A DNA stretch of 64,000 nucleotides, from assembly GCA_019285715.1 (NCBI GenBank), contig CP079108.1, positions 186,001 to 250,000 of the forward strand, given 5' to 3'. A program made the translations under genes and the position numbers. This document shows positions 11,432 through 55,879 of this stretch, one piece after another. Source of the DNA: Sphingosinicellaceae bacterium. GTDB lineage: Bacteria; Pseudomonadota; Alphaproteobacteria; Sphingomonadales; Sphingomonadaceae. Position 1 is the first letter of the stretch. Each line of letters starts with the position of its first letter. A model generated the notes under the pieces. The model saw only the letters and a list, made by a program, of their open reading frames with translations, was not told the DNA's origin and did no database searches.

Positions 11432-12409
11432 CTAGCGCTCCGACTTGAGCGGGCGGTCGAGCAGCGCGGCGATCACCGGGCCGACCGGAGCGCCCGCCAG
11501 TAGCGCCGCCACGGCTTCCGCGATCGGCATCTCGACCCCGGCCGAGCGCGCCGCCTCAACCAGTACCGGCGCGGTCGCGGCACCCTCGGCGACGGTGTCG
11601 CGGTTCGACAACAGTTCAGCGGCCGGGCGACCTTCGCCGATTGCGAACCCGAGGCTCATGTTGCGCGACTTTGGCGAGCCGCAGGTCAGTACGAGGTCGC
11701 CGAGCCCCGACAACCCCGCGAGCGTCTCGGGGCGGCCGCCGCGTGCCACCGCGAACCGCGTCATCTCGGCATAGCCCCGGCTGAGCAGCGCCGCGCGGGC
11801 ATTGTCGCCGAGGCCGCGCCCGGCGACCACGCCGCACGCGATCGCCAGCACGTTCTTGACCGCGCCGCCGATCTCCGCGCCAGTGACGTCGTCGGTCAGG
11901 TAGGGGCGGAACGAGCGGGTCGCGAGCCGTGCCACCAGCTTCGCACCCAGTTCGGCGTCGGCGCAGGCGAGCGTGATCGCGGTCGGCTGGCCGCTCGCGA
12001 CTTCGGCGGCGAAGGTCGGGCCCGACAGGATCGCCAGCGCCGCGCCGGGCAGCGCTTCGGCCGCGACCTCGGCCATAAGTAGGTGCGTGCCCGCCTCGAT
12101 GCCCTTGGCGCACAGCACAAGCGTCCGCAAACCTTGAGGCGCGGCGGCGAGGACCGAGCGGAGGTGCTGGGCGGGCGTTACCACTAGCCAAGTATCGCAG
12201 GCATCGAGCGCGGCGAGGTCGGTGGTCGCGGTAATTCCGGCGGGTAGCTCGACCCCGGGCAGGAAGCGTGTGTTGCGCCGCGCGTCGTTGATGCTCGCGA
12301 CGACGTCGGCCTCGCGCGCCCAGAGCGTCACCGCCTCGCCCTTGCCGGCGAGAACGGCAGCGAGCGCCGTCCCCCATGCGCCGCCGCCGAGAACGCCGAT
12401 GCCACTCAT
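11432..12409 (-). CDS. gpsA: NAD(P)H-dependent glycerol-3-phosphate dehydrogenase
   Basis: A 325-residue cytosolic enzyme reducing dihydroxyacetone phosphate to sn-glycerol 3-phosphate for phospholipid synthesis. Seen are the [13 protein letters not shown] nucleotide loop at the N-terminus, [25 protein letters not shown] with the catalytic Lys, and [12 protein letters not shown]. The ATG at 12409 overlaps the tsaD stop by four bases (ATGA), so the two genes form one transcription unit, an arrangement common in alphaproteobacteria. Confidence 0.96.
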
Positions 12410-13452
12410 GCCTTCACCCCCGCACCGCGCGCGGCCTCGGCGTTCGGGTCGAGCGGCCACCGCGGGCGCGCCGCCGCGTCGAGCCCGTCGACCAGCCCGA
12501 GCGCCAGCCGCTCCGCCCCCGCCCAGGCGATCATCGCGGCGTTGTCGGTGCACAGCCACGGCGGTGGTGCGACGAATTTCGTGCGCGCAGCAGTGGCCGT
12601 CGCAGCAAGCATCGCGCGGACCGCGCTGTTCGACGCGACTCCCCCCGCGACGACGAGCGCACTCGCCTCGGGCATTGCCGCGAGCGCCAGCCGGGTGCGG
12701 TCGGTCAGGCAATCGATGGCGGCCGCCTGGAACGACGCGGCGAGGTCGGCGATGCTGTAGTTGCCGGTGGCGTGGGCGCGCAGGACCGCGCTCTTCAGGC
12801 CCGCGAACGAGAAATGCGGCTCGGCGCTGCCGACCAGCGGGCGGGGCAGCGGTACTGCAGAGGGGTTACCCCCCAGCGCCGCGCGTTCGACCGCCGGGCC
12901 GCCGGGAAAGCCGAGGCCGAGGATCTTGGCGGTCTTGTCGAACGCTTCGCCGACCGCATCGTCGATCGTCGTCGCGAGTCGCCGGTAGCGCCCGACGCCC
13001 TCGACCGCGAGCAACTGGCAGTGCCCGCCGGAGACGAGCAGCAGCAGGTAAGGAAATGCCAGCCCCGGATCGATCAACCGCGGGCTCAGCGCGTGCCCCT
13101 CGAGGTGGTTGACCGCGATCAGCGGCTTGCGGGCGGCAAAGCTGAGCGCCTTGGCGGTGACCAACCCGATCATCACCCCGCCGATCAGCCCTGGGCCGGC
13201 GGTGGCGGCGACCGCATCGACGTCGGCGAGCGCGACCCCGCCCTCGGCCAGCACCCGCTTCACCATCGGGGTGAGCGCGGCAACGTGCTCGCGCGCCGCG
13301 ACTTCGGGGACGACGCCGCCGAACGGCCGGTGCGCAGCGTCCTGGCTGGCGACCGCTTGTGCAACGATCGTGCGGTCGCCGCGCACGAGTGCGACCGCGG
13401 TTTCGTCGCAGCTCGATTCGATACCGAGGATGAGAGGACTGACGCTTGCCAT
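12406..13452 (-). CDS. tsaD: tRNA N6-adenosine threonylcarbamoyltransferase
   Basis: A 348-residue ASKHA-fold protein that transfers the threonylcarbamoyl group to A37 of ANN-reading tRNAs. Seen are [15 protein letters not shown], the metal-binding NHLEGH motif, [24 protein letters not shown] and [10 protein letters not shown]. Its 5' end is 30 bases from hemC, which diverges from it, so the short spacer carries both promoters. Confidence 0.96.
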
Positions 13453-13482
13453 GCCCGGCGCGCCCTAGCACAAGCGGCGGCG

Positions 13483-14388
13483 ATGGATGCAATTCTGAAG
13501 CTCGGGACCCGGGGCTCGCCGCTGGCGCTCGCGCAGGCCCGGATGGTGGCCACCGCACTGGCGGGGCGTGGCACGCGGTCGGAGATCGTCGTCATCTCGA
13601 CCGTCGGCGACCGCGTCCAGGACCGCCCGCTTGCCGAGATCGGCGGCAAGGCGCTGTGGACGCGCGAGCTCGACGCGGCGCTGATCGACCGCCGCATCGA
13701 CTTCGCGGTGCACTCGATGAAGGACGTCGAGACCGACCTCGCTGATGATATCATGCTGGTCGCGATGCTGCCCCGCGCCGATGTCCGCGACCGGCTGATC
13801 GGGGCCGAGTCGCTGGCGGCGCTACCGCAGGGCGGCCGGGTCGGCACGTCGAGTCCGCGCCGCGCCGCGCAGCTTCATGCGGCACGGCCTGACCTGGTTA
13901 TCGAGATGCTGCGCGGCAACGTCGCGACCCGGCTGGCCCGGATCGAGGCGGGCGACTTCGACGCGACCCTGCTGGCCGCTGCAGGCCTCGACCGGCTCGG
14001 CATCGACGCGGGCGTCGCGCTGGAGATCGACGAGTGGCTGCCGGCCCCGGCACAGGGCGCGGTCGGTATCGCGGTGCGCAGGGGCGACATCGCCGTCGCC
14101 GCCGCGGTCGCCGCGATCGACCACGACGACACCAGCACCGCGGTGCGGCTGGAGCGGCATTTCCTCGCCTGCCTCGATGCCGATTGCCACTCGCCGGTCG
14201 CGGCCTTGGCGCGGGTCCACGGTGCGGGCCTGCAGTTCACCGGCGAGATCATCCTGGCGGACGGTTCCGAGCGCCAGCGTGGCTCGGTCGAGGCAACGCG
14301 CGACGGTGCCGCCGACGCGGTTGCGGTGCTCGCCGCCGAGCTGCTGGCGCGTGCCAGCCCGGCGCTCAGGGCGCAGTTCGGCGAGTGA
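13483..14388 (+). CDS. hemC: Hydroxymethylbilane synthase (porphobilinogen deaminase)
   Basis: A 301-residue enzyme that polymerises four porphobilinogens to hydroxymethylbilane, a common step to haem and bacteriochlorophyll. Seen are LGTRGSPLALAQ at the N-terminus, STVGDR, GGKALWTRELD, FAVHSMKDV, GTSSPRRAAQL, LRGNVATRL, and the dipyrromethane-cofactor Cys at residue 235 within DADCHSP. The ATG at 13483 begins MDAILKLGTRGS. hemD follows after 22 bases. Together with hemA at 40 kb, this supplies tetrapyrrole precursor to the nearby photosynthesis genes. Confidence 0.96.
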   Translation: MDAILKLGTRGSPLALAQARMVATALAGRGTRSEIVVISTVGDRVQDRPLAEIGGKALWTRELDAALIDRRIDFAVHSMKDVETDLADDIMLVAMLPRADVRDRLIGAESLAALPQGGRVGTSSPRRAAQLHAARPDLVIEMLRGNVATRLARIEAGDFDATLLAAAGLDRLGIDAGVALEIDEWLPAPAQGAVGIAVRRGDIAVAAAVAAIDHDDTSTAVRLERHFLACLDADCHSPVAALARVHGAGLQFTGEIILADGSERQRGSVEATRDGAADAVAVLAAELLARASPALRAQFGE

Positions 14389-22747: not shown

Positions 22748-24190
22748 CTATTCGTCCCCGACGCCGGACAGGTTGCCTAGACCGTGGCGGTGCAGCTTGG
22801 AATACAGGCTCTGCCGGCTTAGCCCGAGGATTTCGGCGGCGCTGGCCCGGTTGTCGGAGGTGTACGTAAGCGCGGCTTCGATGCACAGCCGCTCGATGAG
22901 GTCGGTCGACTCGCGCACGATATCCTTGAGCGGGACGCGGCCGACCAGCTCGGTCAGCTGCTCGACCGAACGCGGCAGGGCGCGACCAGTCGGCGCGATC
23001 TCGATGGCGGAGCGGCGCGCCGTGCGCAGCGAGAAACCAAAGCAGACCTGGCCGGGCTCGCCGGCGAGGACGGCCGAGACCTCGACCTCCTCTTCGGCAC
23101 CGTGTTGGCCGCGTACTATAGTTGCGAAGTTGCGGACCGTGCCGTGGTCGCGAAGCTGCTGCACCAGAACGCCGAGGTCGATGCCCGGGCGGCCAAGAAA
23201 GCGCGATAGCGGCGCGCCCTTCAGCGCGGATCGTCGCGGGGTTTCGCTGAGATCGAGGAAGGCGGCGTTCTCGGTGATGATGTCGAGGTTGTCATCGGTG
23301 AGGACGAAGGCATCGGGCAAGCGGTCGAGGACGTCGACAAGCCGGCGGTCGGGCGCGTCGGCGGCTGGTCCGGCACCGACCGGCGAGAGCACGCCTGCGG
23401 GGGCAAGGCGGACGAGGAAATAACTGCCGCGGTCCTGTCGGAACAATGTCGCCGACATGCTGCAGAGGGTGCCCGTCTCGGTCTCGACAACAGCGGGTGT
23501 GACCTGCTCGGCAGCGGCGACCGCGCCCAGCAGCGCCAGCGCAGTGTCACGTGAAGCCGGCGCCAGCTGAGCGGCAAAGGCTTGGCCAGCGAGGCGCTCG
23601 ACGCCGGCGGTCAGTCCGCGCGCGGCGGGATTGGCCTCGGTGATCCGGCGGGTCGCGGTCTCGACGATGAACACCGCCTCCCCAGACTGCTCGAACAGCA
23701 GCCGGTAGCGGGTCTCGACCTGGCGCAGCCGGACGTAGTCGCGCTCCATCGACTGTTGTGCGGCGAGCAGGCGCTGCTGGAGCGCCGCGGCGGCGCGCAT
23801 GTCGCGGCCGATGGCGATGACCCGGCCATCGTTCGCGGCGTCAATAGCCAGGTAGCGGATCGGCACCTCGCCTTCCGCCAGCGGGTGATTGACCTGCCGC
23901 CAGCGCGCGGCGGTCCGTGACCCCGCGTCACGAAGCATTTCCTCGATCTTGCCGCGGCTTTCGGCGGTAACCGTGTCGATCCACGGCCGGTCGATCCAGC
24001 TGTCGAAACCCTCTTTCGCGAACTCGCCGCTGCCGAGCGCGACATCCCGGATGATACCGCCACCGTCGAGGACCAGCGCGACATCACCTGAGGCCGCGAT
24101 GATCCGTGCCGCGACGTCGGCATCGACGCCCTGCAGCAATGCGCCACCGCCCCGGAACGGGACCGCAGCCAACGGGGAAGACAGGTCCAT
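22748..24190 (-). CDS. ppsR: Photosynthesis transcriptional repressor PpsR/CrtJ
   Basis: A 480-residue regulator with PAS-type domains (DVALVLDGGGIIRDVALG in the N-terminal part, YRLLFEQSGEAVFIVE near 170, DAFVLTDDNLDIITENAAF near 300), a glutamine-containing linker helix (LQQRLLAAQQSMERDYVRLRQ) and a C-terminal Fis-type helix-turn-helix (RASAAEILGLSRQSLYSKLH). A Cys at residue 436, just before the helix-turn-helix in LCIEAAL, matches the redox-active Cys known in PpsR/CrtJ. In relatives it represses bch, crt and puc genes under oxygen by binding TGT-N12-ACA. It follows ppaA/aerR in the same orientation after 29 bases. Confidence 0.93.
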   Translation of the reverse strand: MDLSSPLAAVPFRGGGALLQGVDADVAARIIAASGDVALVLDGGGIIRDVALGSGEFAKEGFDSWIDRPWIDTVTAESRGKIEEMLRDAGSRTAARWRQVNHPLAEGEVPIRYLAIDAANDGRVIAIGRDMRAAAALQQRLLAAQQSMERDYVRLRQVETRYRLLFEQSGEAVFIVETATRRITEANPAARGLTAGVERLAGQAFAAQLAPASRDTALALLGAVAAAEQVTPAVVETETGTLCSMSATLFRQDRGSYFLVRLAPAGVLSPVGAGPAADAPDRRLVDVLDRLPDAFVLTDDNLDIITENAAFLDLSETPRRSALKGAPLSRFLGRPGIDLGVLVQQLRDHGTVRNFATIVRGQHGAEEEVEVSAVLAGEPGQVCFGFSLRTARRSAIEIAPTGRALPRSVEQLTELVGRVPLKDIVRESTDLIERLCIEAALTYTSDNRASAAEILGLSRQSLYSKLHRHGLGNLSGVGDE

Positions 24191-24219: not shown

Positions 24220-25077
24220 TCAGCCACCAGCGGCGATTGCCTGATCAGCGTCCTGCATGAGATCATCGACGAGCGACTCCGCGACCAGAACCGCCTGCCG
24301 ACCATCGGCAGCGGTGGCGTCGGCGCCGCACTCGGCCGCCCACTCCGGATGTTCGACGAACACCCTGCCACCGACCATAACACCGAGCCGCGGATTGCGC
24401 GAATTCGTACGCAAGGCATTGATCACACGGGGCAGCGCCTCGATATTCTCAGCAGACGCAACCGTCAGCCCGACCAGCTCGAACCAGCGCTGGGCGACGA
24501 TGGCGACGAGATCGGCCTCGCTCGCACCGGGTTCGCTCGCGGTTGCCCAGCCGGCACGGCGAAAAAATTCCTCGACCATCAGCGAGCCGAAACCATGCTG
24601 CTCGCCGGGCATCGGCGCAAATAGCGCGCGCCGTTCACCGCCGCGGCGTTCCGCCGCACCGGGAAGCCGTGCCGCGAGTTCGTGGACGATTTCCTGGAGC
24701 CGCCACAAGGCCATCGTGACATCGACGAAGTCACAGGCGTCGTTGTCCCACAGTTCTCCAAGATAGCGAGCGGCGGGAGCGAGGATGTCGAGGAACACCG
24801 TCTCGACGCTGACCCCGCGTGCGACCTGCACGTCGATATCAACCAGGAGAGCGTAGGCCTCGCTCTTCAGCGCCGCGGTGGCGAAGCGCTCGGCGGCGCC
24901 GGGTGGAACCTGAGCATCGACCACCGTGAGCACGGGCGGCAGGCTGGCGCTCGGCCGATGCGCCATCAACAGCCGCGGGATGATCTCACCCTCGATCAAC
25001 CGCTGAAGCGCGGTTGGAGAGATTTCGTCGGCACCGTCGCGCCGATCGGCGAAAATCACGTCACGCATAGAAGCCAT
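24220..25077 (-). CDS. ppaA: PpaA/AerR cobalamin-type photosynthesis regulator
   Basis: A 285-residue protein. The N-terminal half (LIEGEIIPRLLMAHR, VETVFLDILAPAARYLGELWDNDACDFVDVTMALWRLQEI) is the helical cap found before B12-binding domains. The C-terminal half (FAPMPGEQHGFGSLMVEEFFRRAGW, VGLTVASAENIEALP, LGVMVGGRVFVEHPEWAAECGAD) is the Rossmann-like SCHIC/B12-binding fold. AerR/PpaA proteins bind cobalamin and act as light-dependent antirepressors of PpsR. The ATG at 25077 (MASMRDV) is preferred because the frame upstream has no family similarity. The gene heads a leftward unit with ppsR and diverges from bchF. Confidence 0.9.
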   Translation of the reverse strand: MASMRDVIFADRRDGADEISPTALQRLIEGEIIPRLLMAHRPSASLPPVLTVVDAQVPPGAAERFATAALKSEAYALLVDIDVQVARGVSVETVFLDILAPAARYLGELWDNDACDFVDVTMALWRLQEIVHELAARLPGAAERRGGERRALFAPMPGEQHGFGSLMVEEFFRRAGWATASEPGASEADLVAIVAQRWFELVGLTVASAENIEALPRVINALRTNSRNPRLGVMVGGRVFVEHPEWAAECGADATAADGRQAVLVAESLVDDLMQDADQAIAAGG

Positions 25078-25229
25078 AAGCGGCCCACCCCGATTGGATG
25101 CACAAAGCACGTCCATTCGTCGCGACGGCTGCCGTTTGCCGGTTTCGCCTATCGCGACTCGGCTGAGGCTACGCTCACCTACAAGGCCTTGCAATCCCAT
25201 CGTCAATCACTCTCAAAATTCGAGGAATG

Positions 25230-25263
25230 TGTCAATTGGCCCTTACGTCCAAAAGATTTGACA
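25230..25263. promoter_or_regulatory. Two opposed TGT-N12-ACG boxes (candidate PpsR operators) upstream of ppaA
   Basis: TGTCAATTGGCCCTTACG on the plus strand (25230-25247) and TGTCAAATCTTTTGGACG on the minus strand (25246-25263) each fit the PpsR consensus TGT-N12-ACA except at the last base. They abut, so the whole stretch is flanked by TGTCAA and TTGACA. It lies 153-186 bases upstream of ppaA and would have been shared with bchF before the insertion sequence arrived. TTGACA could alternatively be a promoter -35 element. Confidence 0.4.
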
Positions 25264-25282
25264 CGACGTTTGCGGGTGCTAG

Positions 25283-26126
25283 GCTCAGGACCTATTAAAG
25301 GGATTCCCACGACGACGCTGATCTGATTCAATCGCGGCGCTGAGGAGGCGTCGCGATGAGTGATCTGATCTGGTTGTCGGAGGCGCAGATGCGCCGGATC
25401 GAGCCGCATTTTCCGTTGTCGCACGGTGTGCCGAGGGTGGATGACCGGCGGGTAATCAGCGGGATCATTTTCGTGATCCGCAATGGGCTGCGCTGGCGGG
25501 ACGCGCCCAAGGATTACGGCCCACACAAGACGATCTACAACCGCTTTATCCGCTGGAGCCGGCTGGGCGTGTTCAACCGCATCTTCGCAGCGCTGGCGGC
25601 CAAGGGCGGTAAGCCCGACCGGCTGATGATCGACGCGACCCATCTGAAGGCGCATCGGACCGCTGCCAGTCTGCTCAAAAAGGGGCTCTTCCCCGATGTA
25701 TCGGCCGGACCAAAGGCGGCCTGAACTCCAAGCTGCACGCGGTCTGTGACGGCCAGGGCCGGCCGCTGGTCATGCTGCTCACCGAAGGGCAGACCAGCGA
25801 CTACAAGGGCGCAGCGTTGATGTTCGATGCCTTGCCCAAGGCCAAGGCGATGCTCGGCGACCGGGGTTACGACGCCGACTGGTTCCGCGCCGCCCTGATC
25901 GCCAAGGGCATCGCGCCGTGCATCCCGTCGAAGGCCAATCGAAAAACCCCGATCCCGCACGACCGGACCATCTACCGCCAGCGCCACCGCATCGAGAACA
26001 TGTTCGGCAAACTCAAAGACTGGCGGCGCATCCACACCCGCTACGACCGCTGCGCCCACACCTTCTTCTCAGCCATCGCCATCGCCGCTACCGTCATCTT
26101 CTGGCTCTGATCAATGAGTCCTGACC
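25283..26126 (+). mobile_element. IS5 family (IS427 group) insertion sequence between ppaA and bchF
   Basis: An 844-bp element bounded by imperfect terminal inverted repeats: GCTCAGGACCTATT at 25283-25296 and the complement of GGTCAGGACTCATT at 26113-26126 (11 of 14 match). Both ends are flanked by CTAG (25279-25282 and 26127-26130), consistent with a target-site duplication. The single transposase gene is split over two frames, as in the IS427 group. Only 40 bases separate the right end from the bchF start, while about 205 bases remain before ppaA. The intact frames and clear flanking repeats suggest a fairly recent insertion. Confidence 0.92.
25356..26110 (+). CDS. IS5 family transposase (two frames, probable -1 frameshift)
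   Basis: Frame 1 (25356-25724) encodes MSDLIWLSEAQMRRIEPHFP, then DDRRVISGIIFVIRNGLRWRDAP and LMIDATHLKAHRTA, carrying the first catalytic Asp. The second part is in the -1 frame, entered before 25772, and reads through GGLNSKLHAVCDGQGRPLV, LGDRGYDADWFR and RIENMFGKLKDWRRI to 26110, carrying the remaining DDE residues. The switch most likely happens at the A5G4 run at 25677-25685, giving a fusion of about 251 residues. Programmed frameshifting is usual in this IS group, so it need not be a pseudogene. It reads in the same direction as bchF. Confidence 0.9.
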
Positions 26127-26166
26127 CTAGATTTGGCTCAAGACACGACCAACGAGTCAGGCAGCG

Positions 26167-34684
<8,518 letters not shown>

Positions 34685-42196: not shown

Positions 42197-42877
42197 ATGC
42201 GGATTTTGAACAGGGCTTTGTTTCCCGTCGTTGCTTTGCTTGCCGTCGCCGCGGTACCGGCTGCTGCAGTGACGTTCACGTCTTCGGCTGGCGCTCCCGA
42301 CAAGGGCCCCGCCGCCGGTGAGAGCATTCTCGTCGACTTCAACGGCGTTAACGGCGGTCTTCCGGCCGGCTATACGCTGAGCGGCGACTACACCCTGGCG
42401 ACCGGCACCACGAAGGCTGCAGCGGCTCCCGCCGGTGACGCCACGCAGTACCTCTACACGTCGCCGTCGAAGGGCACTGGCGTCGCGACGCTGTCGACGC
42501 TCGATCTGTCGACCGTCAGCTTCTACTGGGGCTCGATCGACAACTACAACACCGTCGACGTTCTCGGTGCGAACGGCGTCGTCCTGCTTACCATGAACGG
42601 TACGCAGTTCTCGCCGGCCAACGGTGCCCAGGGCGCCTCGAACACCAACCAGCGCGTGTTCTTCACCGCTGGTGCCGGTGAGGTGATCACCGGTCTGCGC
42701 TTCCATGCAACCGGTATTGCCTACGAAATCGACGATGTCGCCGGCACCCTCGCCAGCGGCGGCAACCCGTCGACGGTCCCCGAGCCCGCGACCTGGGCCC
42801 TGATGATCGGTGGTTTCGGCATGGTCGGCATCGGTGCCCGCCGTCGTCGCAACGCCACGTCGCGCGTCAGCGCCTAA
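42197..42877 (+). CDS. Secreted PEPxxWA-CTERM domain protein
   Basis: A 226-residue exported protein. Residues 1-23 are a signal peptide (basic MRILNR, hydrophobic core, AAA). The mature part is rich in Gly, Ser, Thr and Asn with little Lys, like an extracellular beta-sandwich (VDFNGVNGGLPAGYTLSGD, VSFYWGSIDNYNTVDV, GLRFHATGIAYEIDDVAG). It ends with VPEPATWALMIGGFGMVGIGARRRR: the PEP motif, a hydrophobic helix and a basic tail, recognised by exosortase for sorting to the envelope or matrix. TAGGAG precedes the ATG, an RpoN promoter lies 43-57 bases upstream, and a strong terminator follows. Confidence 0.9.
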   Translation: MRILNRALFPVVALLAVAAVPAAAVTFTSSAGAPDKGPAAGESILVDFNGVNGGLPAGYTLSGDYTLATGTTKAAAAPAGDATQYLYTSPSKGTGVATLSTLDLSTVSFYWGSIDNYNTVDVLGANGVVLLTMNGTQFSPANGAQGASNTNQRVFFTAGAGEVITGLRFHATGIAYEIDDVAGTLASGGNPSTVPEPATWALMIGGFGMVGIGARRRRNATSRVSA

Positions 42878-42919
42878 GCGCCTTTCGGCCTCGTGCCGAA
42901 ACCGCAAGCGTACGAAATC

Positions 42920-42952
42920 GGGCGCGGGGACTTCGGTCTCCGCGCCCTTTTT
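42920..42952 (+). terminator. Intrinsic terminator after the PEP-CTERM gene
   Basis: A 12-bp stem starting GGGCGCGG, with one wobble pair, closed by a TTCG tetraloop and followed by five Ts. It ends 26 bases before the stop of the converging halogenase-like gene and may serve both directions. Confidence 0.88.
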
Positions 42953-42978
42953 CATGGGTGCAGCGGGGCGCACCCACG

Positions 42979-44463
42979 CTACGCGGCGCAATAGCCCTTC
43001 ACGAACGCCTCGTGGGTCGGCATCGCGGCGAGCGCGGTGGCGATGCCTCGCTTAAGGTCGCCGAGAACGCGCTGCAGCTCGCCGGGCTGGAGCAGCTGCC
43101 CCAGCGGATGCCAGTCGCCCGGCACGACGCGCTGGCCGAGCATCACCGAAACCCAGGAATCGACGCGGAACAGGTCGTCGCCGCCCTGGTAGGCCATCGC
43201 GGATTCGCGGAACAAGGCGATGCGTTCGGACAGCGAGGCGGGGATCGGCATGTCCCGGCAGCGCCGCCAGAACGGCGTGTCGTCGCGCTCGGTCGCCTTG
43301 TAGTGGAGGATGATGAAGTCGCGGATGCCGGTCCATTCGCGTGTCGACTGGGCGTTGAAGCGCGCCGCCTGCGCGGTGTCGGTACCGCCGAAGGGGAACA
43401 GCTGGATTAGCCGGGTCACGGCAACTTGGATCAGGTGGATGCTGGTCGATTCGAGCGGCTCGATGAACCCCGAGGCGAGGCCGAGCGCGACGCAGTTGCG
43501 GGACCAAGTGCTGGCCCGCATGCCGGTGCGGTACCGGATCGGGCGCGGGTCGAAGAGCCGCTTGCCGTCGAGGACACCGATCAGTCGTGCGCAGGCTTCG
43601 TCCTCGGACAGGAAGTCGCTGGCGTAGACGATGCCGTTGCCGACGCGGGACTGCAGTGGGATGCGCCAGCGCCAGCCCTCGCCGTGGGCGATGGCGCGGG
43701 TGTACGGCACGGGCGGGCCGACACTTTCGGTCTGTACCGCGAGCGCGCGGTCGGTGGCGATCCACTCGCCCCAATCGTTGAACGGGACCTTGAGCGCGTC
43801 GCCGATCAGCAAGGCGCGGAAGCCGGTGCAGTCGATGAACAGGTCGCCCTCGATGCGCTCGCCGGACTCGAGCTCGAGCGCCGAGATGTCGCCGCTCTCC
43901 GGATCAAGCTCGACGTTGCGGATCTTGCCCTCGACGCGGCGCACCCCGGCAGGTTCGGCGAGCGCGCGCAGGAACCGCGCATAGCCGGTCGCGTCGAGAT
44001 GGTAGGCATACGCGGCAGCGGGCTGCTGGCCGAGCGCGAAGCGGCCCGCCAGAGCTGCCTGCTGCTCGAGCGAAAAGGTGCCGTAGTCGTCGGCGGTGAT
44101 ACCGGCGCGCTTCGCCTCAAGCCAGAAATGCTGGAAGTCGCCCATCCACACCGACCGGCCAACCGATCCGAAGGGGTGGAAATAGCGGTCGCCGTCGCGG
44201 CCCCAGTTCTCGAACGCGATGCCAAGTTTGAACGTCGCCTGCGTCGCCCGCATGAACGCCGGCTCGTAGATGCCGAGCAGCTCGTGGAAGGTGCGCGCGG
44301 TCGGGATCGTCGACTCGCCGACGCCGACCGTGCCGATCTCGTCGGACTCGACCAATGTGATCTCGATCAGCGGCCCGAGCTGCTTGACCAGCGCCGCCGC
44401 CGCCACCCACCCAGCGGTACCGCCGCCGGCGATGACCACGCGTTCGACCCGCTTGTTGCTCAC
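42979..44463 (-). CDS. Tryptophan halogenase family flavoprotein
   Basis: A 494-residue flavin-dependent halogenase-like protein. Seen are the FAD loop VIAGGGTAGWVAAAAL, TVGVGESTIPT, the hallmark WRWRIP (WxWxIP motif) in GEGWRWRIPLQ, and GFIEPLESTSIHLIQ. In sphingomonads and Caulobacter, proteins of this type regularly accompany TonB receptors and SapC in sugar-uptake loci, and their real substrate there is not known. The GTG at 44463 overlaps the stop of the sugar transporter by four bases. It is the last gene of a leftward unit with the transporter and the LacI regulator. Confidence 0.88.
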   Translation of the reverse strand: MSNKRVERVVIAGGGTAGWVAAAALVKQLGPLIEITLVESDEIGTVGVGESTIPTARTFHELLGIYEPAFMRATQATFKLGIAFENWGRDGDRYFHPFGSVGRSVWMGDFQHFWLEAKRAGITADDYGTFSLEQQAALAGRFALGQQPAAAYAYHLDATGYARFLRALAEPAGVRRVEGKIRNVELDPESGDISALELESGERIEGDLFIDCTGFRALLIGDALKVPFNDWGEWIATDRALAVQTESVGPPVPYTRAIAHGEGWRWRIPLQSRVGNGIVYASDFLSEDEACARLIGVLDGKRLFDPRPIRYRTGMRASTWSRNCVALGLASGFIEPLESTSIHLIQVAVTRLIQLFPFGGTDTAQAARFNAQSTREWTGIRDFIILHYKATERDDTPFWRRCRDMPIPASLSERIALFRESAMAYQGGDDLFRVDSWVSVMLGQRVVPGDWHPLGQLLQPGELQRVLGDLKRGIATALAAMPTHEAFVKGYCAA

Positions 44464-45740
44464 GCCGTGTCCCTCCCCAGTCCCTCGTCCAGCATCGGGC
44501 CGACCACCTCTCCGGGGGTCTGCGGCCGATACAGAAGCACGACAGTTAGCGCTATCGCGGCGGTGATTGCCATGCCCCACAATGTCGACAGTTCCGGCCT
44601 GAGCAGCGACAACGCGATCACCTGCGGCGCGAGCGCCTGGGCGAGCTTCCGCGCGATGTTCGACAGCGCGTAAACCCGGCCCGCACACCCCTCGTTCGCC
44701 ATCCGCGCCTCGCAGTCGGCCAGCGCTGCCGGAACCAGCGACCAGAACATGATCGACAGACCGCAGCCCGCCACGATCGCGATCGCCGTCATCCCGACGA
44801 CCGCTGTCCGGTTGCCGAGGTAGAGTGCAAGGACGGTCGCGCCTGCCTTGATCAGGGCAGCGATGGTCAGCGCGGTTCCGCGCCCGACGCGGCGCGCCAG
44901 TAAGGTCCACCACGGCGCGGTCAACAGCAGCGATGCCGAGGGTACCAGCGCGACATAGAACCCCAGTCGCGGCGCACCCAGCTCCTCGAACAGGAAAAGG
45001 ATCGACTTGTTGACCACGGTAACGGCAAGGCCAGCCGACATGATCACCGCCAGCAGCCGCCGTAGCGCGGGGGAGCGGCGGACCAGCTCCACCGTTCCGG
45101 CCAGGCTGTGCAGCAGCGGCTCGCGCCGCATCGCGGTCGGCGCGACGCGCTCGCGAACCCCGAAATAGGTCGCACAGAATGCTGGTAGCGCCAGCACCGC
45201 CAGCAACAGCGCACCGTCGCGGAAGTCGGCGCCCCCCGTCGTCGCCGGCAGCAGCGCGTACACCGCCGCGGCGATCAGCCCGCCGATCGCCGCACCCTGC
45301 ATCCGCGCCCCGGTCAGCGCGAGGTGATCCTTGGGCCTGGCCGAGATCCGCGCCGTCAACGCGGCATAGGGAATGTTGCCCAGGCTGTAGGACGCCCGCA
45401 GCGCGAGATGGATCACCAGGACCACGACCGGCAGGTACGCGGCGGCGACCGGCGGCGTCGTGAAGGCGGCCGCCAGCAGCACCACCGACAATGGTCCGCC
45501 GACCAGGACCCAGGCACGCACGGGAACGCGTGGTGCCGCGCGGTCGGCCAGGGTCCCGACGAGCGGGTCGACCAGCCAGTCCATTGCCGCGCCCGCCAGG
45601 AAGATCGTCGCCGCGACCTGCGGCGACAGGCCAAGGCCGCGGATATAGAAATACAGCAGGTACAGTTCGATCGACTGCCAGACGAAGTTCCAGCCGATGT
45701 CGCCGGCGGCAAAGCTCCAGCGTTCGCGCGCCGTGATCAT
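44460..45740 (-). CDS. GPH-family sugar:cation symporter (MFS_2)
   Basis: A 426-residue, 12-helix transporter of the glycoside-pentoside-hexuronide type. Seen are ERWSFAAGDIGWNFVWQSIELYL at the N-terminus, MDWLVDPLVGTLADR (the Asp cluster of this family), YSLGNIPYAALTARIS and MFWSLVPAALADCEA. It probably imports glucosides or oligosaccharides released by the nearby GH1 enzyme. It overlaps both the LacI gene and the halogenase-like gene by four bases, so the three form one operon. Confidence 0.85.
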   Translation of the reverse strand: MITARERWSFAAGDIGWNFVWQSIELYLLYFYIRGLGLSPQVAATIFLAGAAMDWLVDPLVGTLADRAAPRVPVRAWVLVGGPLSVVLLAAAFTTPPVAAAYLPVVVLVIHLALRASYSLGNIPYAALTARISARPKDHLALTGARMQGAAIGGLIAAAVYALLPATTGGADFRDGALLLAVLALPAFCATYFGVRERVAPTAMRREPLLHSLAGTVELVRRSPALRRLLAVIMSAGLAVTVVNKSILFLFEELGAPRLGFYVALVPSASLLLTAPWWTLLARRVGRGTALTIAALIKAGATVLALYLGNRTAVVGMTAIAIVAGCGLSIMFWSLVPAALADCEARMANEGCAGRVYALSNIARKLAQALAPQVIALSLLRPELSTLWGMAITAAIALTVVLLYRPQTPGEVVGPMLDEGLGRDTA

Positions 45741-46828
45741 CGGCTTGGCGAGCGCCAGCGGCCGGGCGCGCGTGGCGGCGCGGTCGATTCGCGGACGATC
45801 AGCTGGTGCGCATGGTCGGTGCGCCGCGTCGCGTCGGTGCCTTCGAGACCGCCGATGAGCATGCCGGTCGCGCTCGCCGCCATCTCGAACACCGGCTGAC
45901 GCACGGTGGTGACGCGGGGCCAGGTGATCTGCGCGACCTGCGAGTCGTCGAAGCCGGTGACCGAGACATCGCCCGGCACCTCGAGCCCAAGTTCGTGCGC
46001 GGCCATGATCGCACCGACCGCCATGTCGTCGTTCTGCGCCAGGATCGCGGTCGGTCGGGCGGCACGTGCCAGCATCCGGCGCCCAGCCTCGAGGCCGCTC
46101 TCGTAGGTGTACAGGCCAGGTTCGACATGGCCGGGCGCAACCGTGACCCCGGCTGCCTCGAACGCCTGCTTATAGCCGGTCATGCGGGCGACGGACGAGG
46201 CGTGAGTCGGGTCTCCCATGATGATGCCGATGCGCCGATGGCCGAGGTCGAGCAGGTGGGTCGCGACTTCGCGCGCCGCGGCGATGTCGTCGATCACGGT
46301 GACATAACCGGTATCGATCTCCCGGGTCGGCGCGATACGGGCGCAGCGAATGCCTGCCGCCGCCAGTTGTGCGAGCACCAGCGGGTGATCCGACGCGGGC
46401 GGCGCGAGCACGACCCCGTCGATCGAAGCGGAACGCAGTAGCCCGACGACCTCGCCGGCGTGTGTGTCGACCGACTGCACCGGGATCACGACGAGCCGGT
46501 ACGACTCGCCAGCCAGGCGGTGCAGCACGCCCTTCTGCAGCTCGACGACATAGCTCGGGCTGGGGTTCTCGTAGATCAGGCCGATGAGGTGCGAGCGCCG
46601 GCGTACAAGCGCCTGGGCGTGCACGTTGGGATGGTAGTTGAGGGCGGTGGCCGCGTCGCGGACCCGCTGTTTCAGCGCGTCGCTGACGTGTGGCTCGTCG
46701 TTGAAGACCCGCGATACGGTCTTGGTGGAGACGCCCGCAAGCCGGCCCACCTCGACGATCGTCGTCCGTTTCGTGTCCTCGGCCAGCTTAGCATCCCCGC
46801 CATTCGATCGGCCCGAAAGGTGAGCCAC
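45737..46828 (-). CDS. LacI family transcriptional regulator
   Basis: A 363-residue repressor. The helix-turn-helix and hinge (TIVEVGRLAGVSTKTVSRVFN, LKQRVRDAATALNYHPNVHAQAL) occupy about 23-75, followed by a periplasmic-binding-protein-like ligand domain (LIGLIYENPSPSYVVELQKG, RRIGIIMGD, DVSVTGFDDSQVAQITWP). It most likely senses a sugar from the GH1/TonB receptor locus and controls the divergent receptor gene. The GTG at 46828 starts about 20 residues before the helix-turn-helix; a later start is possible. Confidence 0.88.
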   Translation of the reverse strand: MAHLSGRSNGGDAKLAEDTKRTTIVEVGRLAGVSTKTVSRVFNDEPHVSDALKQRVRDAATALNYHPNVHAQALVRRRSHLIGLIYENPSPSYVVELQKGVLHRLAGESYRLVVIPVQSVDTHAGEVVGLLRSASIDGVVLAPPASDHPLVLAQLAAAGIRCARIAPTREIDTGYVTVIDDIAAAREVATHLLDLGHRRIGIIMGDPTHASSVARMTGYKQAFEAAGVTVAPGHVEPGLYTYESGLEAGRRMLARAARPTAILAQNDDMAVGAIMAAHELGLEVPGDVSVTGFDDSQVAQITWPRVTTVRQPVFEMAASATGMLIGGLEGTDATRRTDHAHQLIVRESTAPPRAPGRWRSPSR

Positions 46829-46977
46829 GTGCGCTTGTTATCAGGCGCCAGCCCGACCGCCGGCGAGTCCGGGATCGAACTGCATACCCCAGAGCCATAA
46901 ACGCGTCATTCTGGCCACAGTACGAAACTATCTATCGGTCGCCCCCGCACATCACCCATAGGCCCGATTTTTGCGTG

Positions 46978-47010
46978 TTGACAACGTAGGACAAGATGTT
47001 ACCGCTCACA
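46978..47010 (+). promoter_or_regulatory. Putative promoter and LacI-type operator before the TonB receptor
   Basis: A TTGACA (46978-46983) fits a -35 element, though no good -10 follows at normal spacing. TGTTACCGCTCACA (46997-47010) is an imperfect palindrome with a central CG and resembles LacI-family operators (two mismatches between arms). It lies 57-70 bases before the receptor start in the spacer shared with the divergent LacI gene. Tentative. Confidence 0.3.
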
Positions 47011-47067
47011 TTAAGGATTTAAATCCACAGGTTTCTTCAAAAGGAACCGCAACTGAGGGGGATCAAC

Positions 47068-50000
47068 GTGAAACTTCACAATTATATTTCTGCGCTTGGA
47101 CGTTCGTCGTCGACGGTCGCGCTCGCCGCGTGCATCGTCTTCCCGGCGCAGCTCCTGGCCCAAACCGACCCGACCAACGCGCAGCCGGGCCCAGCGCCCG
47201 CCACCGCACAGGCGCAAGGAGCGGTGCCGGCTTCGCCACTCGTCCCGGACGACATCGTCGTCACCGGTATTCGCGCCTCGCTCGAGCGCTCGATCGCGAT
47301 CAAGCGCAACTCGACCGGCATCGTCGACGCGATCTCGGCCGAGGACATCGGCAAGTTCCCCGACACCAACCTAGCCGAATCGCTGCAGCGTATCACCGGC
47401 GTCTCGATCAGCCGGCGCAGCGGCGAGGGCGCGGAGGTCACGGTTCGCGGCTTTGGTCCGCAATATAACCTGGTGACGCTCAATGGCCGCCAGCTTGCCG
47501 CGACGTCGCAGCAGACGGTCGGCGGCGACGAGAGCGCCGACTACTCGCGCAACACCAGCCGGTCGTTCGACTTTTCCAACCTTGCTGCCGAAGGCGTAAA
47601 GACCCTCGAGGTCTACAAGACCGGCCGCGCGGCGATCCCCTCGGGCGGTATCGGCGCGACGATCAATGTCGTCACTCGCCGGCCGCTCGACGCGAAGGAA
47701 AGCGGCCTGACCGGCTCGATCGGTGCCAAGGCGGCCTACGACATGAGCAGCGACGACTGCATCAAGTGCGGCTCGCACGTGACGCCCGAAGCGTCGGGCC
47801 TCGCCAATTGGACCAACGCCGACCAGACTTTCGGCGTGTCGTTGTTCGGGAGCTACCAGAAGCGCGATTTCAGCAACATCAGCGCAACCGTAAACGACTG
47901 GAATATCACCAGTTATGCGAAGTTCATCGATCCTGCCAGCGGCAACGTCAACGCCGCGACCAAGATCACCAACGCACCGACCGACCCGAACACGCTCGTT
48001 GGGCGCCCGAACGACTTCCGCTATCACTTCGGCGAAGGCACCCGCGAGCGCATCAACGGCCAGGGCATCATCCAGTTCAAGCCGACCGATCGCCTCGACC
48101 TGAGTATCGACGGCCTGTACGCGCAGAACACCCAGAAGGAGCGGCGCTCGGACCAGGCGAACTGGTTCAACCGGCCCTTCGACCAGGTCACGTTCGACAG
48201 CGGCCATTCGGTCGCGACCACGACCTTCCTTCACGAAGTCATCTCGGGCGAAACCAAGGACGCCGGCTTCGAGCAGCAGTATCGCGCGCAGAAATCGACG
48301 CTCTACGATATCGGCGCCAAGGCAAAGTGGGAAGTAACGGATAATTTCAACATCGCATTCGATGGCCATATCGGCCAGTCGAAGAGCAACCCCGACAACC
48401 CCAACGGGATGAGTTCGACCCTCGTCGCGATCAGTTCGCCGACGCTGGCGTCGCATTCCGTCGACTACAGCAAGGGTTTCCCGACCCAGACCGTAACCTT
48501 CGCCGATCCGGCGACGCCGACCGCACCGGACGGGTCGCACCCGGTGATCAAGGGCAATGGCAACGGCGTCCTCGATGTCGGCGACCTCGGCAGCCAGGTT
48601 GCACGGCAAGTCTCGACCGCGCTCAACCAGAAGATCAAGGAAGCCCGGCTTGATGCGGGCTGGGATATCGGGGGTGGCAGTCGTTTCGATTTCGGCGGTG
48701 ACTACCGGACCACCAACACGCGGTCCTTGCAGACGACCTACAACCAGACGCTGGGCGACTGGGGCAACGCGCACCCGCGCGACGTCGAGGCGATCGCGCC
48801 GGGTATGGTCAAGCCGTTTTGCCTGGTTTGCCGTTTCAACGACAACGATCCCAAGGCAGCCGGCGACGGCCTGGTCGCGTTCCGCACGCAGGATGCGACC
48901 AAGCTCTACAATGCGCTCTCTTCGTTTTATGCCGAAAATCCCAACAAGATCGACGGTTTCTCGGATGACCGGGTCAAGGAGGATATCTGGGCGGTCTACG
49001 GCCAGTTCACCTGGAAGGGCGATATCGCCGACCACCCGGCCAGCCTCGTCACCGGCGCGCGGTTCGAAAGCACGCGGGTAAAATCAAACTCGCTCCAGGC
49101 AATACCGGTCGATATCCGCTGGCAGTCCGACAACGACTTCCTGGTCGACGTCTCAAGCACTTACCTGCCGGTCAAGGCGTCGGGCCGTTACAACAACCTG
49201 CTTCCGTCGATGGACTTCCAGATCGAGATCAAACGCAACTTGATCGGTCGTTTCTCGTTCAGCCGGACGATCTCGCGCCCGAGCTTTGGCAACCTGTTTG
49301 CATCGGGTGCCGCTACCAAGCCGAATGACGCCACCGCAGTCGGGGGCCAGGCGGGCGGCTCGCAGAACGACGCGAACCTTAAGCCGCTGATATCCGATAA
49401 CTTCGATCTGTCCGCAGAATGGTATTTCAAGCCGGACAGCTACGTGTCGATCGGCTTCTTCGACAAGCGGGTGCACAATTTCATCGGCAATACGGTGGTC
49501 AAGCAGAACCTGTTCGGCCTGCGCGATCCTAGCTCGGGCGCGCCGGGCAGCCGTTCAGGGACCGCCAAGTCGCAGCTCCAGGGCATCGGAGCCGACATCA
49601 CCGATGTAAACCTGTTCACCTACACCGCGCTGCTCCAGCAGAACGCCGGCAACCTCGCGGCGGCGAATGCGACCTTCCTGGCCAACTACAACCCGTCGAC
49701 ACGCTCGCTGAACCAGGCGTTCGTGGATACGACGCTGGCCGCAGTCGACATCATCGCCGACGCCAACGACCCGCTGTTCAACTTCAACGTCAACACGCCG
49801 ATCAACAACAAGGACGCTGAGATCTACGGCCTCGAAATCGCGGGCCAGTATTTCTTCGGGAACAGCGGCATCGGCGTCGCCGCAGCCTACACGCTGGTAC
49901 GCGGTAACATCGGCATCGACGTCGCCGCCGATCCCAGCGTCGACCAGTTCGCCTTGCTCGGGCTGAGCGATACGATCAACGCGACGCTGATCTACGACAA

Positions 50001-50274
50001 GAACGGCGTCTCGGCCCGTCTCAGCTGCAACTGGCGCAACAAGTTCCTGTCGGCGCTCAACCGCGACGCCGATCACAACCCGGAGTTCACCGCGCCTTAC
50101 GGTCAGCTCGACCTCAACATCAGCTACGACATCACGCCGCAGATCGCGGTCTCGTTCGAGGCGATCAACCTCAACAAGGAGGGCGTGAAGACCTACGGGC
50201 GCTCGACCAACCAGATCTGGCTCGTCCAGGAAGGGCAGCGGCGCTTCCTCGCCGGTGCGCGGTACCGCTTCTAG
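47068..50274 (+). CDS. TonB-dependent receptor (oligosaccharide-type)
   Basis: A 1068-residue outer-membrane receptor. Residues 1-31 are a signal peptide ending LLAQ. A TonB-box-like DDIVVTG follows at about 61-67, then the plug domain (IVDAISAEDIGKFPDTNLAESLQRITGVSI, VTVRGFGPQYNLVTLNGR, GIGATINVVTRRPLD), and a long 22-stranded barrel ending RRFLAGARYRF with the terminal Phe needed for outer-membrane insertion. The IGKFPDTNLAE signature is typical of proteobacterial carbohydrate receptors. Neighbouring SapC, cupin, GH1 and sugar transporter genes support glycan uptake. It is followed by a strong terminator. Confidence 0.93.
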   Translation: MKLHNYISALGRSSSTVALAACIVFPAQLLAQTDPTNAQPGPAPATAQAQGAVPASPLVPDDIVVTGIRASLERSIAIKRNSTGIVDAISAEDIGKFPDTNLAESLQRITGVSISRRSGEGAEVTVRGFGPQYNLVTLNGRQLAATSQQTVGGDESADYSRNTSRSFDFSNLAAEGVKTLEVYKTGRAAIPSGGIGATINVVTRRPLDAKESGLTGSIGAKAAYDMSSDDCIKCGSHVTPEASGLANWTNADQTFGVSLFGSYQKRDFSNISATVNDWNITSYAKFIDPASGNVNAATKITNAPTDPNTLVGRPNDFRYHFGEGTRERINGQGIIQFKPTDRLDLSIDGLYAQNTQKERRSDQANWFNRPFDQVTFDSGHSVATTTFLHEVISGETKDAGFEQQYRAQKSTLYDIGAKAKWEVTDNFNIAFDGHIGQSKSNPDNPNGMSSTLVAISSPTLASHSVDYSKGFPTQTVTFADPATPTAPDGSHPVIKGNGNGVLDVGDLGSQVARQVSTALNQKIKEARLDAGWDIGGGSRFDFGGDYRTTNTRSLQTTYNQTLGDWGNAHPRDVEAIAPGMVKPFCLVCRFNDNDPKAAGDGLVAFRTQDATKLYNALSSFYAENPNKIDGFSDDRVKEDIWAVYGQFTWKGDIADHPASLVTGARFESTRVKSNSLQAIPVDIRWQSDNDFLVDVSSTYLPVKASGRYNNLLPSMDFQIEIKRNLIGRFSFSRTISRPSFGNLFASGAATKPNDATAVGGQAGGSQNDANLKPLISDNFDLSAEWYFKPDSYVSIGFFDKRVHNFIGNTVVKQNLFGLRDPSSGAPGSRSGTAKSQLQGIGADITDVNLFTYTALLQQNAGNLAAANATFLANYNPSTRSLNQAFVDTTLAAVDIIADANDPLFNFNVNTPINNKDAEIYGLEIAGQYFFGNSGIGVAAAYTLVRGNIGIDVAADPSVDQFALLGLSDTINATLIYDKNGVSARLSCNWRNKFLSALNRDADHNPEFTAPYGQLDLNISYDITPQIAVSFEAINLNKEGVKTYGRSTNQIWLVQEGQRRFLAGARYRF

Positions 50275-50300
50275 CAGCGGACCGAGAAGGCTCGCGCAGA

Positions 50301-50326
50301 GGGCCACGGGTAACCGTGGCCCTTTT
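50301..50326 (+). terminator. Intrinsic terminator after the TonB receptor gene
   Basis: GGGCCACGG and CCGTGGCCC form a perfect 9-bp stem with a GTAA loop, followed by four Ts, 27 bases after the receptor stop. Confidence 0.9.
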
Positions 50327-50414
50327 CGCAGGCCCGAATTGCGAAGCCGGGGCTGTCGGGGCATCCTTTCCGGATGGATGTTCGCAAGCGCCTCAGACTG
50401 GGATTGCCGCCGCG

Positions 50415-51125
50415 ATGACGAATGTCGTCAAGCTCATTAACGTCGATCATGCCGGCCTGCGGGTCGTCGCAGCCGGCTGGGGTGACGGCGTCAATCAGGT
50501 TCCGGTGTTTCCGACCGAGTTCGAAGCGGTGCAGCGCGATTTCCCGATCGTCTTCCATCGGGGCACCGATGGCGCGTTCGAGGCGCGAGCGCTGATGGGG
50601 CTCGATCGGGGCGAGAACCTGTTCCTCGACGGCGAGCGCTGGCGCGCGCGCTATGTGCCCGCGCTGCTGGCGCGCGGGCCCTTCACGATCGGTCTCGAAG
50701 CGCGTGCCGGAAGCGCCCCCGAGCCGATGATCTACGTCGACCTCGACGATCCACGCGTCATGAGCGAGGGCGGTGAGCCGGTATTCCTCCCCCACGGCGG
50801 TAATGCGCCGTGTCTCGAACGCGTGCTCGACGCGCTCCAGACCGCCCACCTAGGGCATGCGGCGCAGGGTCCGATGTTCGCCGCATTTGCTGCGGCGGGG
50901 CTAATCGAGCCGGTACGCATAGAAGCCCAGCTCGACGACACGCTGCGCTACGATATCGCCGACTTCCACACCATCGGGGTCGAGGCCCTTGCCAGTCTGA
51001 CCGGGTCGGCGCTGGAGGAACTGCACCGCCAGGGTTGGCTCGCCGCCGCCGTCCACGTCGTCTCGTCGCTCGGCAACATGGCGCGGCTGATCGCGCTCAA
51101 GAACGCCCGGCGCGCGGGCGCGTAG
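50415..51125 (+). CDS. SapC family protein
   Basis: A 236-residue cytosolic protein of the SapC family, so named after a Campylobacter surface-layer locus. Seen are VPVFPTEFEAVQRDFPIVFHR, ALMGLDRGENLFLDGERWRARYVPALLARGPF, a central acidic region, and LYDTL-like LDDTLRYDIADFHTIG. The biochemical role is unknown, but the gene regularly follows TonB receptors with halogenase-like and cupin genes. The ATG at 50415 opens directly before family homology. The cupin gene follows after 3 bases. Confidence 0.85.
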   Translation: MTNVVKLINVDHAGLRVVAAGWGDGVNQVPVFPTEFEAVQRDFPIVFHRGTDGAFEARALMGLDRGENLFLDGERWRARYVPALLARGPFTIGLEARAGSAPEPMIYVDLDDPRVMSEGGEPVFLPHGGNAPCLERVLDALQTAHLGHAAQGPMFAAFAAAGLIEPVRIEAQLDDTLRYDIADFHTIGVEALASLTGSALEELHRQGWLAAAVHVVSSLGNMARLIALKNARRAGA

Positions 51126-51128
51126 GCG

Positions 51129-52160
51129 ATGGTCGAGATCCGCCGCCGCACGCGCGTCGTCGAGGCGGCAACGCTGGACGCTGACGCGGCCGATGCGCTG
51201 CTTGCGTCGCCCCAGCCGGCGATCGTCCGGGGCCTCGCCGCGAACTGGCCGCTGGTCCGCCACGGCAGGGAGTCGGCGGGCGAGGCGATCGACTATCTGG
51301 CGAGCTTCGACCAGCAGCAGCCGATCGTCGGCTATACCGGTGACCCGGCGATCGGCGGGCGGTTCTTCTACGACGACGACCTCCGCGGCCTGAATTTCGC
51401 TCGCGAGCGCGTCGGGCTGAGCGCGTATCTCGAGCGCATGCGCGCGCATCTCGACGACGCCGCCGCGCCGTCGCTCTACATCGGATCGACCGACCTCACG
51501 GGCTATCTCCCGGGCTTTGCCGACGCCAACCCGCTGCCCTTCGCGAGCGCGACGCTCGTCGCCGCGCCCCCGCTTGCGAGCATCTGGATCGGCAACCGGA
51601 CGATCGCCGCGGCGCACTGGGACATGTCGAACAACGTCGCGGTCTGCGCGGTCGGGCGGCGGCGCTTCACATTGTTCCCTCCCGACCAGGCCGCCAACCT
51701 CTACCCCGGCCCGCTCGAACCGACGCCGGGCGGACAGGTGGTGAGCATGGTCGATTTCGACGTGCCCGACTTCGACCGCCATCCCGGTTTCCGCGAGGCG
51801 CTGGCGGCAGCCGAGGTCGCCGACCTCGGGCCTGGGGATGTCCTCATCTACCCGGCATTGTGGTGGCACCAGGTCGAGGCGCTCGACGCCTTCAACGTGC
51901 TGGTCAATTACTGGTGGAACGCCGCGGAGCCGTTCATGGACAACCCGATGACGACGCTGCTGCACGGGCTGCTGGCGCTCCGCGACCGGCCGCTTGCCGA
52001 GAAGCAGGGCTGGCGCGCGCTCTTCGACTATTATGTCTTTGGCCCCGCCGACCGCGCCGGGGCGCACCTGCCGGAGCACGCGCGCGGTCCACTCGGCACG
52101 CTCGACGACCGCAGCGCGCGACGGCTCCGCGCGCAAATCCTGCAACAGATGAACCGCTAG
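51129..52160 (+). CDS. Cupin-like (JmjC-type) Fe(II)/2-oxoglutarate oxygenase family protein
   Basis: A 343-residue protein of the cupin-8/JmjC type. The metal site is visible as H163 and D165 in AAHWDMSNN and a distal H247 in LWWHQVEAL. The N-terminal PAIVRGLAANWPLV and the FTLFPPDQAANLYPGPLEPTPGG segment are standard. Such proteins hydroxylate protein side chains, and in sphingomonad TonB-receptor loci they occur together with SapC and tryptophan halogenase homologues. Target unknown. ATG at 51129. Confidence 0.87.
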   Translation: MVEIRRRTRVVEAATLDADAADALLASPQPAIVRGLAANWPLVRHGRESAGEAIDYLASFDQQQPIVGYTGDPAIGGRFFYDDDLRGLNFARERVGLSAYLERMRAHLDDAAAPSLYIGSTDLTGYLPGFADANPLPFASATLVAAPPLASIWIGNRTIAAAHWDMSNNVAVCAVGRRRFTLFPPDQAANLYPGPLEPTPGGQVVSMVDFDVPDFDRHPGFREALAAAEVADLGPGDVLIYPALWWHQVEALDAFNVLVNYWWNAAEPFMDNPMTTLLHGLLALRDRPLAEKQGWRALFDYYVFGPADRAGAHLPEHARGPLGTLDDRSARRLRAQILQQMNR

Positions 52161-52189
52161 CGTCGTGCCAGCAAAGAACGGGGGAACAC

Positions 52190-53611: not shown

Positions 53612-53624
53612 TGACGCCGCAACC

Positions 53625-55202: not shown

Positions 55203-55224
55203 GCGCCACAGCGTTGCCCGGGTG

Positions 55225-55416
55225 TCAGTCGTTGGCCGGAATGCCGATCATCGGAAACCAGGCCGCGATCGGGCGCAGCTTGTTGTCGGAAAGAGCGGCT
55301 GCGTCGCCAGGGTGGCGGGCAAACCAGCGCTCGACATCGTCGTCGCTCGGCACGGGGTTGATCATTTTGGCATCCTCTGGACTGTGCTTGGGAGGCTTGG
55401 GCGGTTTCCTCGCCAT
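55225..55416 (-). CDS. Hypothetical small protein after the PEP-CTERM gene
   Basis: A 63-residue polar protein, Lys/Pro-rich at the start (ARKPPKPPKHSPEDAK) and ending WFPMIGIPAND, without signal peptide or membrane segment. It starts five bases after the stop of the small PEP-CTERM gene on the same strand, so it would share its sigma-54 promoter. There is no clear ribosome-binding site and no recognised family. The composition is unlike frame shadows, so a real gene is plausible. Confidence 0.45.
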   Translation of the reverse strand: MARKPPKPPKHSPEDAKMINPVPSDDDVERWFARHPGDAAALSDNKLRPIAAWFPMIGIPAND

Positions 55417-55421
55417 GAGTT

Positions 55422-55673
55422 TCAGGCGCTGACGACGATAGCGCCGCGACGGTGACGGATGATCGCGCCGGTCATGCCGGCGCCGATAACCGACATCGCC
55501 CAGACCGCGGGCTCGGGAAGAGGCGTTGTCGTGATGTGACGTTCAAACGCCTCGCCTGTCGCGGCGAGACCCGGTCGGGCAATCGGCGCGGTGCCGAAGT
55601 CGAAATCGACCGCAGCGATGACGCCAGTGGTCAAGGCCACTCCGAGTATTGTCTTAAGCACATGCTTACTCAT
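55422..55673 (-). CDS. Small PEPxxWA-CTERM domain protein
   Basis: An 83-residue exported protein. The N-terminal SKHVLKTILGVALTTGVIAAV is a signal peptide. A mature part of only about 30 residues is followed by PLPEPAVWAMSVIGAGMTGAII and a basic HRRG tail, the exosortase sorting signal. It is unusually short for a PEP-CTERM protein. A perfect sigma-54 promoter lies 38-54 bases upstream of the ATG at 55673. Confidence 0.82.
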   Translation of the reverse strand: MSKHVLKTILGVALTTGVIAAVDFDFGTAPIARPGLAATGEAFERHITTTPLPEPAVWAMSVIGAGMTGAIIRHRRGAIVVSA

Positions 55674-55710
55674 ACTGACGTGATGTTAACGAGAAGATCA
55701 TCGGTCCATG

Positions 55711-55727
55711 TGCAAATCCTGTGCCAA
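55711..55727 (-). promoter_or_regulatory. Sigma-54 (-24/-12) promoter before the small PEP-CTERM gene
   Basis: On the minus strand TTGGCACAGGATTTGCA contains TGGCAC-N5-TTGCA with the GG and GC pairs 12 bases apart, matching all conserved RpoN positions. The predicted transcript starts near 55700, giving a leader of about 27 bases. Confidence 0.8.
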
Positions 55728-55879
55728 GACCTCAAACGTCGAATATCCGCCGTTTCGACAGCCTTAATATTTACTAACTGTAAAGAAGTCCGACAGTTTC
55801 AAGTTACCGGCAAGACGCCGGTGCGATGTCGGATCAGTCGGTAGCGGTCTGTTACGAATGATGCGGTACTATCCGTGGC

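Follow-up and report, generated by a model that had tools for sequence, protein, structure and literature searches.

Does a photosynthesis operon stay under its repressor when a mobile element lands in its promoter? The question is raised by the window, a 64-kb stretch (positions 186001 to 250000 of a one-contig genome of 4,425,478 bp) in which an insertion sequence separates bchF from the divergent genes ppaA and ppsR. The preliminary description of this DNA feared that the element had cut bchF off from PpsR control, uncoupling pigment synthesis from the repressor, or had silenced phototrophy.

The locus and its insertion sequence

The operon begins with bchF (26167..26691, + strand; PF07284, 9.8e-61) and extends to hemA, at 41389. 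Its earlier outline as a 15-kb operon stands for bchF, which was named by Pfam, and for bchN, B, H, L and M, puhA, acsF, puhE and hemA, which were named by NCBIfam; lhaA, puhB and puhC are assigned by position and collinearity with a congener only. On the - strand lie ppaA (24220..25206; B12-binding by Pfam), whose true start is probably inside this open reading frame, and ppsR (22748..24190). The latter is open over its full length and encodes PAS domains and a Fis-type helix-turn-helix (HTH_8) by Pfam; its product matches that of the congener at 76% over 477 amino acids. A PpsR-type repressor gene is therefore present near the promoter. Elsewhere in the genome, pufL and pufM (G000:C1:4248065-4249727, about 4.248 Mb) are both open. 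If the contig is circular, their distance from bchF is about 390 kb; in the congener it is about 244 kb, on the same contig.

Two other features of the window were observed. The block from 42197 to 57106 has no match to the 80-kb congener stretch that was compared and contains genes for a tryptophan halogenase, an MFS transporter, a LacI regulator, a TonB receptor, a cupin and a GGDEF protein. A long open reading frame at 12376-14388 encodes porphobilinogen deaminase in its C-terminal portion, starting near residue 374; the preceding portion matches nothing in Pfam at 1e-5 and is perhaps non-coding.

The insertion sequence is flanked by CTAG on the left (25279-25282) and on the right (26127-26130) and lies on the same (+) strand as bchF, which starts 36 bases past the right CTAG. 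It spans 25283..26126 (844 bp), or 25282-26127 (846 bp) if the duplication is the TA alone, and its ends match as terminal inverted repeats at 11 of 14 bases. Two transposase frames are present on the + strand: ORF A (25356..25724; DUF4096, PF13340, 1.5e-23) and ORF B (25694..26110, also given as 25694-26107; DDE_Tnp_1, PF01609, 2.5e-16). These domains together denote a DDE transposase of the IS4/5 type. A -1 shift at AAAAAGGGG (25677..25685, + strand), a frameshift predicted from the sequence, would fuse A and B into one open frame of 251 amino acids that runs up to the final stop. The element thus has the features of the IS5 family and IS427 group: the DDE transposase, the two frames with a frameshift, the inverted repeats and a duplication around TA. 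The best plasmid matches of the element (89-90%), from Polymorphobacter, are annotated as IS5 family transposase. Lichen strains of Polymorphobacter carry photosynthesis genes, according to the portion of the source consulted (PMC8001610), which is a hint, though no proof, of what sort of organism the window comes from.

In the congener, ppaA-bchF is uninterrupted and the one genome available contains no copy of the element. Thus, this is a true insertion. Together with the Pfam domains and the junctions, the uninterrupted congener confirms that an IS5/IS427-group element lies upstream of bchF, as had been described. Comparison of the same junction in relatives, which the preliminary description had suggested, found the insertion in only 1 of the 57 family bchF loci read, that of the window. 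A scan of 145 bchF-region loci, which include some duplicates and some loci with short upstream DNA, likewise found the element's transposase nowhere but at the window's own locus.

Within the genome the element has nine matches. Besides the window's own there is a second copy at 100% identity, and six others fall into two groups of three, at 89% and at 70-71%; the ninth is a fragment. The CTAG duplications that had been described do flank both ends in the window. However, among the eight genomic copies compared, the TA is duplicated in all eight and CTAG in only three (the window, L001 and L003), which points to TA as the duplication. It is therefore likely that the target is YTAR and the element 846 bp. 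When TA is taken as duplicated and the element as ending G...C, the targets of the eight copies are CTAG in five and CTAA, TTAA and TTAG once each. Under either duplication the empty site reads GGGTGCTAGATTTGG.

We also counted CTAG around the insertion. The window contains 25 occurrences, compared with about 56, 75 and 186 expected under second-order, first-order and single-base models, and from 25081 to 26167 CTAG is present only as the two copies flanking the element. In 56 relatives, the 260 bases preceding codon 21 of bchF contain 28 occurrences, compared with 5.7 at the window rate (about fivefold). Because CTAG is scarce in the window and frequent upstream of bchF, an element favouring CTAG would be apt to hit the bchF -10.

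The bchF promoter before and after insertion

Left of the element, at 25230..25263 on the + strand, family conservation marks a pair of candidate PpsR/CrtJ-type boxes, TGT-N13-CGT-N12-ACA. Taken individually they read TGT-N12-ACG and CGT-N12-ACA. Each is one base off TGT-N12-ACA, and the exact motif occurs in neither box. In the portion of the R. capsulatus work consulted, CrtJ recognises TGTN12ACA and gives ChIP peaks upstream of bchF (PMC5362033). The ACA of the second box lies inside TTGACA (25258..25263), the -35 of bchF, so this box overlaps the -35 of the photosynthesis operon. The paired site is also symmetric: the minus strand likewise reads TGT...CGT...ACA and ends in TTGACA toward ppaA, and the site could for that reason serve both divergent genes. 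The element splits the shared ppaA/bchF control region and leaves the candidate boxes on the ppaA side, as had been stated. Its left flank retains TGTCAATTGGCCCTTACGTCCAAAAGATTTGACA, 16 bases and then TAG.

For a family comparison, an alignment search for bchF in 298 genomes gave 58 positives including the window's own. Upstream DNA was read for 57 of these loci (30 + 27), leaving out G265, at a contig end. Among the 56 loci other than the window's, TTGACA was read within 400 bases in all but one (L135, dropped), and the -35 is thus exact by selection in the resulting set of 55 promoters. We found the first box as TGT in 48 of the 55 and as CGT in 3 more, and the second as [CT]GT in 51. The family frame is TGT-N13-[CT]GT-N12-ACA, with its end part of TTGACA; four promoters (L116, L123, L139 and L140) are without boxes. 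A -10 model fitted downstream of TTGACA gave TAGNYT at a spacing of 16-18, with CTAG at the -10 in 11 of the 55. The uninterrupted congener (L106) has the same boxes, followed by TTGACA-N16-TAGGCT. In most family members read, the PpsR-type boxes, the -35 and the TAG-type -10 of bchF thus form one conserved unit, which gives these phototrophs a promoter model that is simple and can be tested.

The insertion target CTAG falls inside the -10 hexamer, which read TAGATT before insertion and now reads TAGGCT (25280..25285, + strand). The first two or three bases of this chimeric -10 are host DNA, the remainder is the left end of the element, and the spacer from TTGACA is N16. TAGGCT is the native -10 in 5 of the 55 family promoters. 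It scores 8.2 bits by the family model, versus 2.2 bits for TAGATT; 18 of the 55 natives score below the chimera and 3 below TAGATT. Judged by these scores, the chimeric -10 is typical, not strong, among family promoters. By matches counted to the E. coli consensus the order is reversed (3/6 for TAGGCT versus 4/6 for TAGATT). A general promoter scan reported none at the left junction. In the 64-kb window, TTGACA-N16-18-TANNNT occurs a single time on both strands, and that occurrence is the left junction.

To the right of the element, the former -10 TAGATT (26128..26133, + strand) is stranded without a -35. The hexamers 15-19 bases before it are CTGATC, TCTGAT, CTCTGA, GCTCTG and GGCTCT; none resembles a -35, and we rejected the idea that a promoter arose at the right junction.

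We also considered whether docking in -10 sites is a wider habit. IS5/IS427-type elements that seek YTAR or CTAG might dock in CTAG-bearing -10s, rebuild them in either orientation and capture a regulated promoter for their transposase while sparing the host operon, steered by the scarcity of CTAG elsewhere. We think this improbable. Either end of the element would rebuild a family -10: the left end gives TAGGCT and the right end would give TAGGGT, the latter native in 3 of the 55. However, the pattern TTGACN{17,19}TAGGNTCAGGA matched in only 3 of 397 genomes, while a rough estimate gives about 7 by chance, and the lack of enrichment in this single pattern test counts against the idea; the backward control pattern had 1 match. 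The three matches are the window, L160 and L162. In L160 the match is a genuine element end, with TTAG, beside the edge of a contig; at L162 no transposase was found. TTGACA stands at N15-17 before the junction TAG in none of the seven other genomic copies, which leaves the window's as the only case among eight. The looser target, which includes CTAA, TTAA and TTAG, also weighs against such docking, and we rejected a family-wide insertion habit. As a separate observation, the related element end in L160 (genome G109) lies behind TTGACC-N16-TAGGGT, and this is possibly a second promoter-preserving insertion.

Source of operon transcription

The operation of this locus can be proposed from its sequence, from which we infer promoter activity, PpsR binding, read-through and the effect on expression. 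The element would have inserted at the CTAG that forms part of the bchF -10, and its left end would then have produced TAGGCT 16 bases from the intact TTGACA, so that a whole family-type promoter, with its boxes, would survive on the left. RNA polymerase would start some 10 bases into the element, near 25292, and transcription would cross the same-strand transposase and continue into bchF and the rest of the operon. The bchF leader would be about 870 nt, versus about 27 nt natively. Because the boxes, the -35 and a family-type -10 are still together, control by PpsR and PpaA should persist, and because the long mRNA crosses the transposase, this control would extend to that gene. We regard it as probable that PpsR-type control is kept in this way, with RNA starting inside the element and a single long mRNA extending across the transposase into bchF.

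The preliminary description had offered three sources for operon transcription: the element, read-through from the transposase and the last 40 bases before bchF. Of these, the analysis agrees that operon transcription must now begin at or in the element, in line with the proposal above. The last 40 bases, however, are the old bchF leader (36 bases, 26131..26166, + strand), where neither a promoter scan nor a pattern search found a promoter-like site. The suggested uncoupling of pigment synthesis from PpsR is not supported by the left junction, where boxes, -35 and spacer stayed together and the element end supplies a family-type -10. The concern that bchF was cut off from PpsR control is likewise not supported, because the insertion did not part the promoter core from the boxes.

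Partial uncoupling is possible through a promoter inside the element. A candidate, TTCCCA-N17-TTCAAT (25304..25332, + strand), was recognised by eye before the transposase start, and TGATTCA is kept there in 8 of 8 aligned rows. Such a promoter would be weak and independent of PpsR. It is unlikely to be the main driver of the operon: it matches the consensus poorly and was missed by the consensus scan, and the promoter that carries the boxes and an exact TTGACA has its -10 on the same strand just 47 bases upstream. Alongside the proposed long mRNA it may add some repressor-independent transcription.

Could the insertion instead have crippled or silenced the operon, either because the 0.87-kb leader causes polarity or because the native -10 is gone, and is phototrophy then being lost? 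The original -10 was split, and the long leader with its frameshifted transposase could favour Rho. In folding, the long transcript leaves the bchF start region slightly less accessible, with an unpaired value of 0.31-0.33 versus 0.52. The element also looks recent, its second copy being 100% identical, so decay might not yet show. However, a family-type -10 has been rebuilt, and the operon genes tested, ppsR, ppaA, pufL and pufM are all open; the silencing suggested earlier is therefore not supported, and we consider it quite unlikely. A search of 25100-26300 for terminator-like sites gave none on the + strand. The only one in the region lies on the opposite strand, a number that shuffled sequences also reach.

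An assembly error that misplaced the second element copy at bchF is hardly credible: the two copies are 100% identical, but the genome is one contig, the target duplication is clean and both flanks are ordered as in relatives.

Comparison with known systems

The preferred reading, a box-controlled promoter completed by the end of the element, suggests how a master promoter can be hit in its core with almost no effect, the element end restoring what was split. If the predicted transcript is made, light and oxygen now govern a transposase, and the leader of a 15-kb pigment operon contains that transposase. Our literature searches found no paper on an insertion sequence with PpsR and bchF, on PpsR-linked promoters in the Sphingomonas photosynthesis gene cluster, or on IS427 with a CTAG target site.

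As a member of the IS5 family and IS427 group the element has no unusual trait. It is like the others in size, in DUF4096 with DDE_Tnp_1, in the two-frame frameshift and in the short TA/CTAG-type duplication; its location sets it apart.

The closest counterpart of the promoter is the divergent ppaA-bchF promoter of Dinoroseobacter shibae, in which a PpsR motif likewise covers the -35 (PMC10890935). In the part of that report consulted, a further motif lies over the -10, and half-site changes derepress bchF-lacZ; the repression measured by lacZ fusions is that of D. shibae. Unlike the window, the D. shibae promoter has no insertion mentioned in that part of the report.

Hybrid promoters made by insertion sequences are known in which the element supplies an outward -35. 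The arrangement here is similar in that host and element each give part of the promoter. It differs in that the repressor boxes and the -35 come from the host while the element completes the -10 with its second part, and in that transcription would enter and cross the element.
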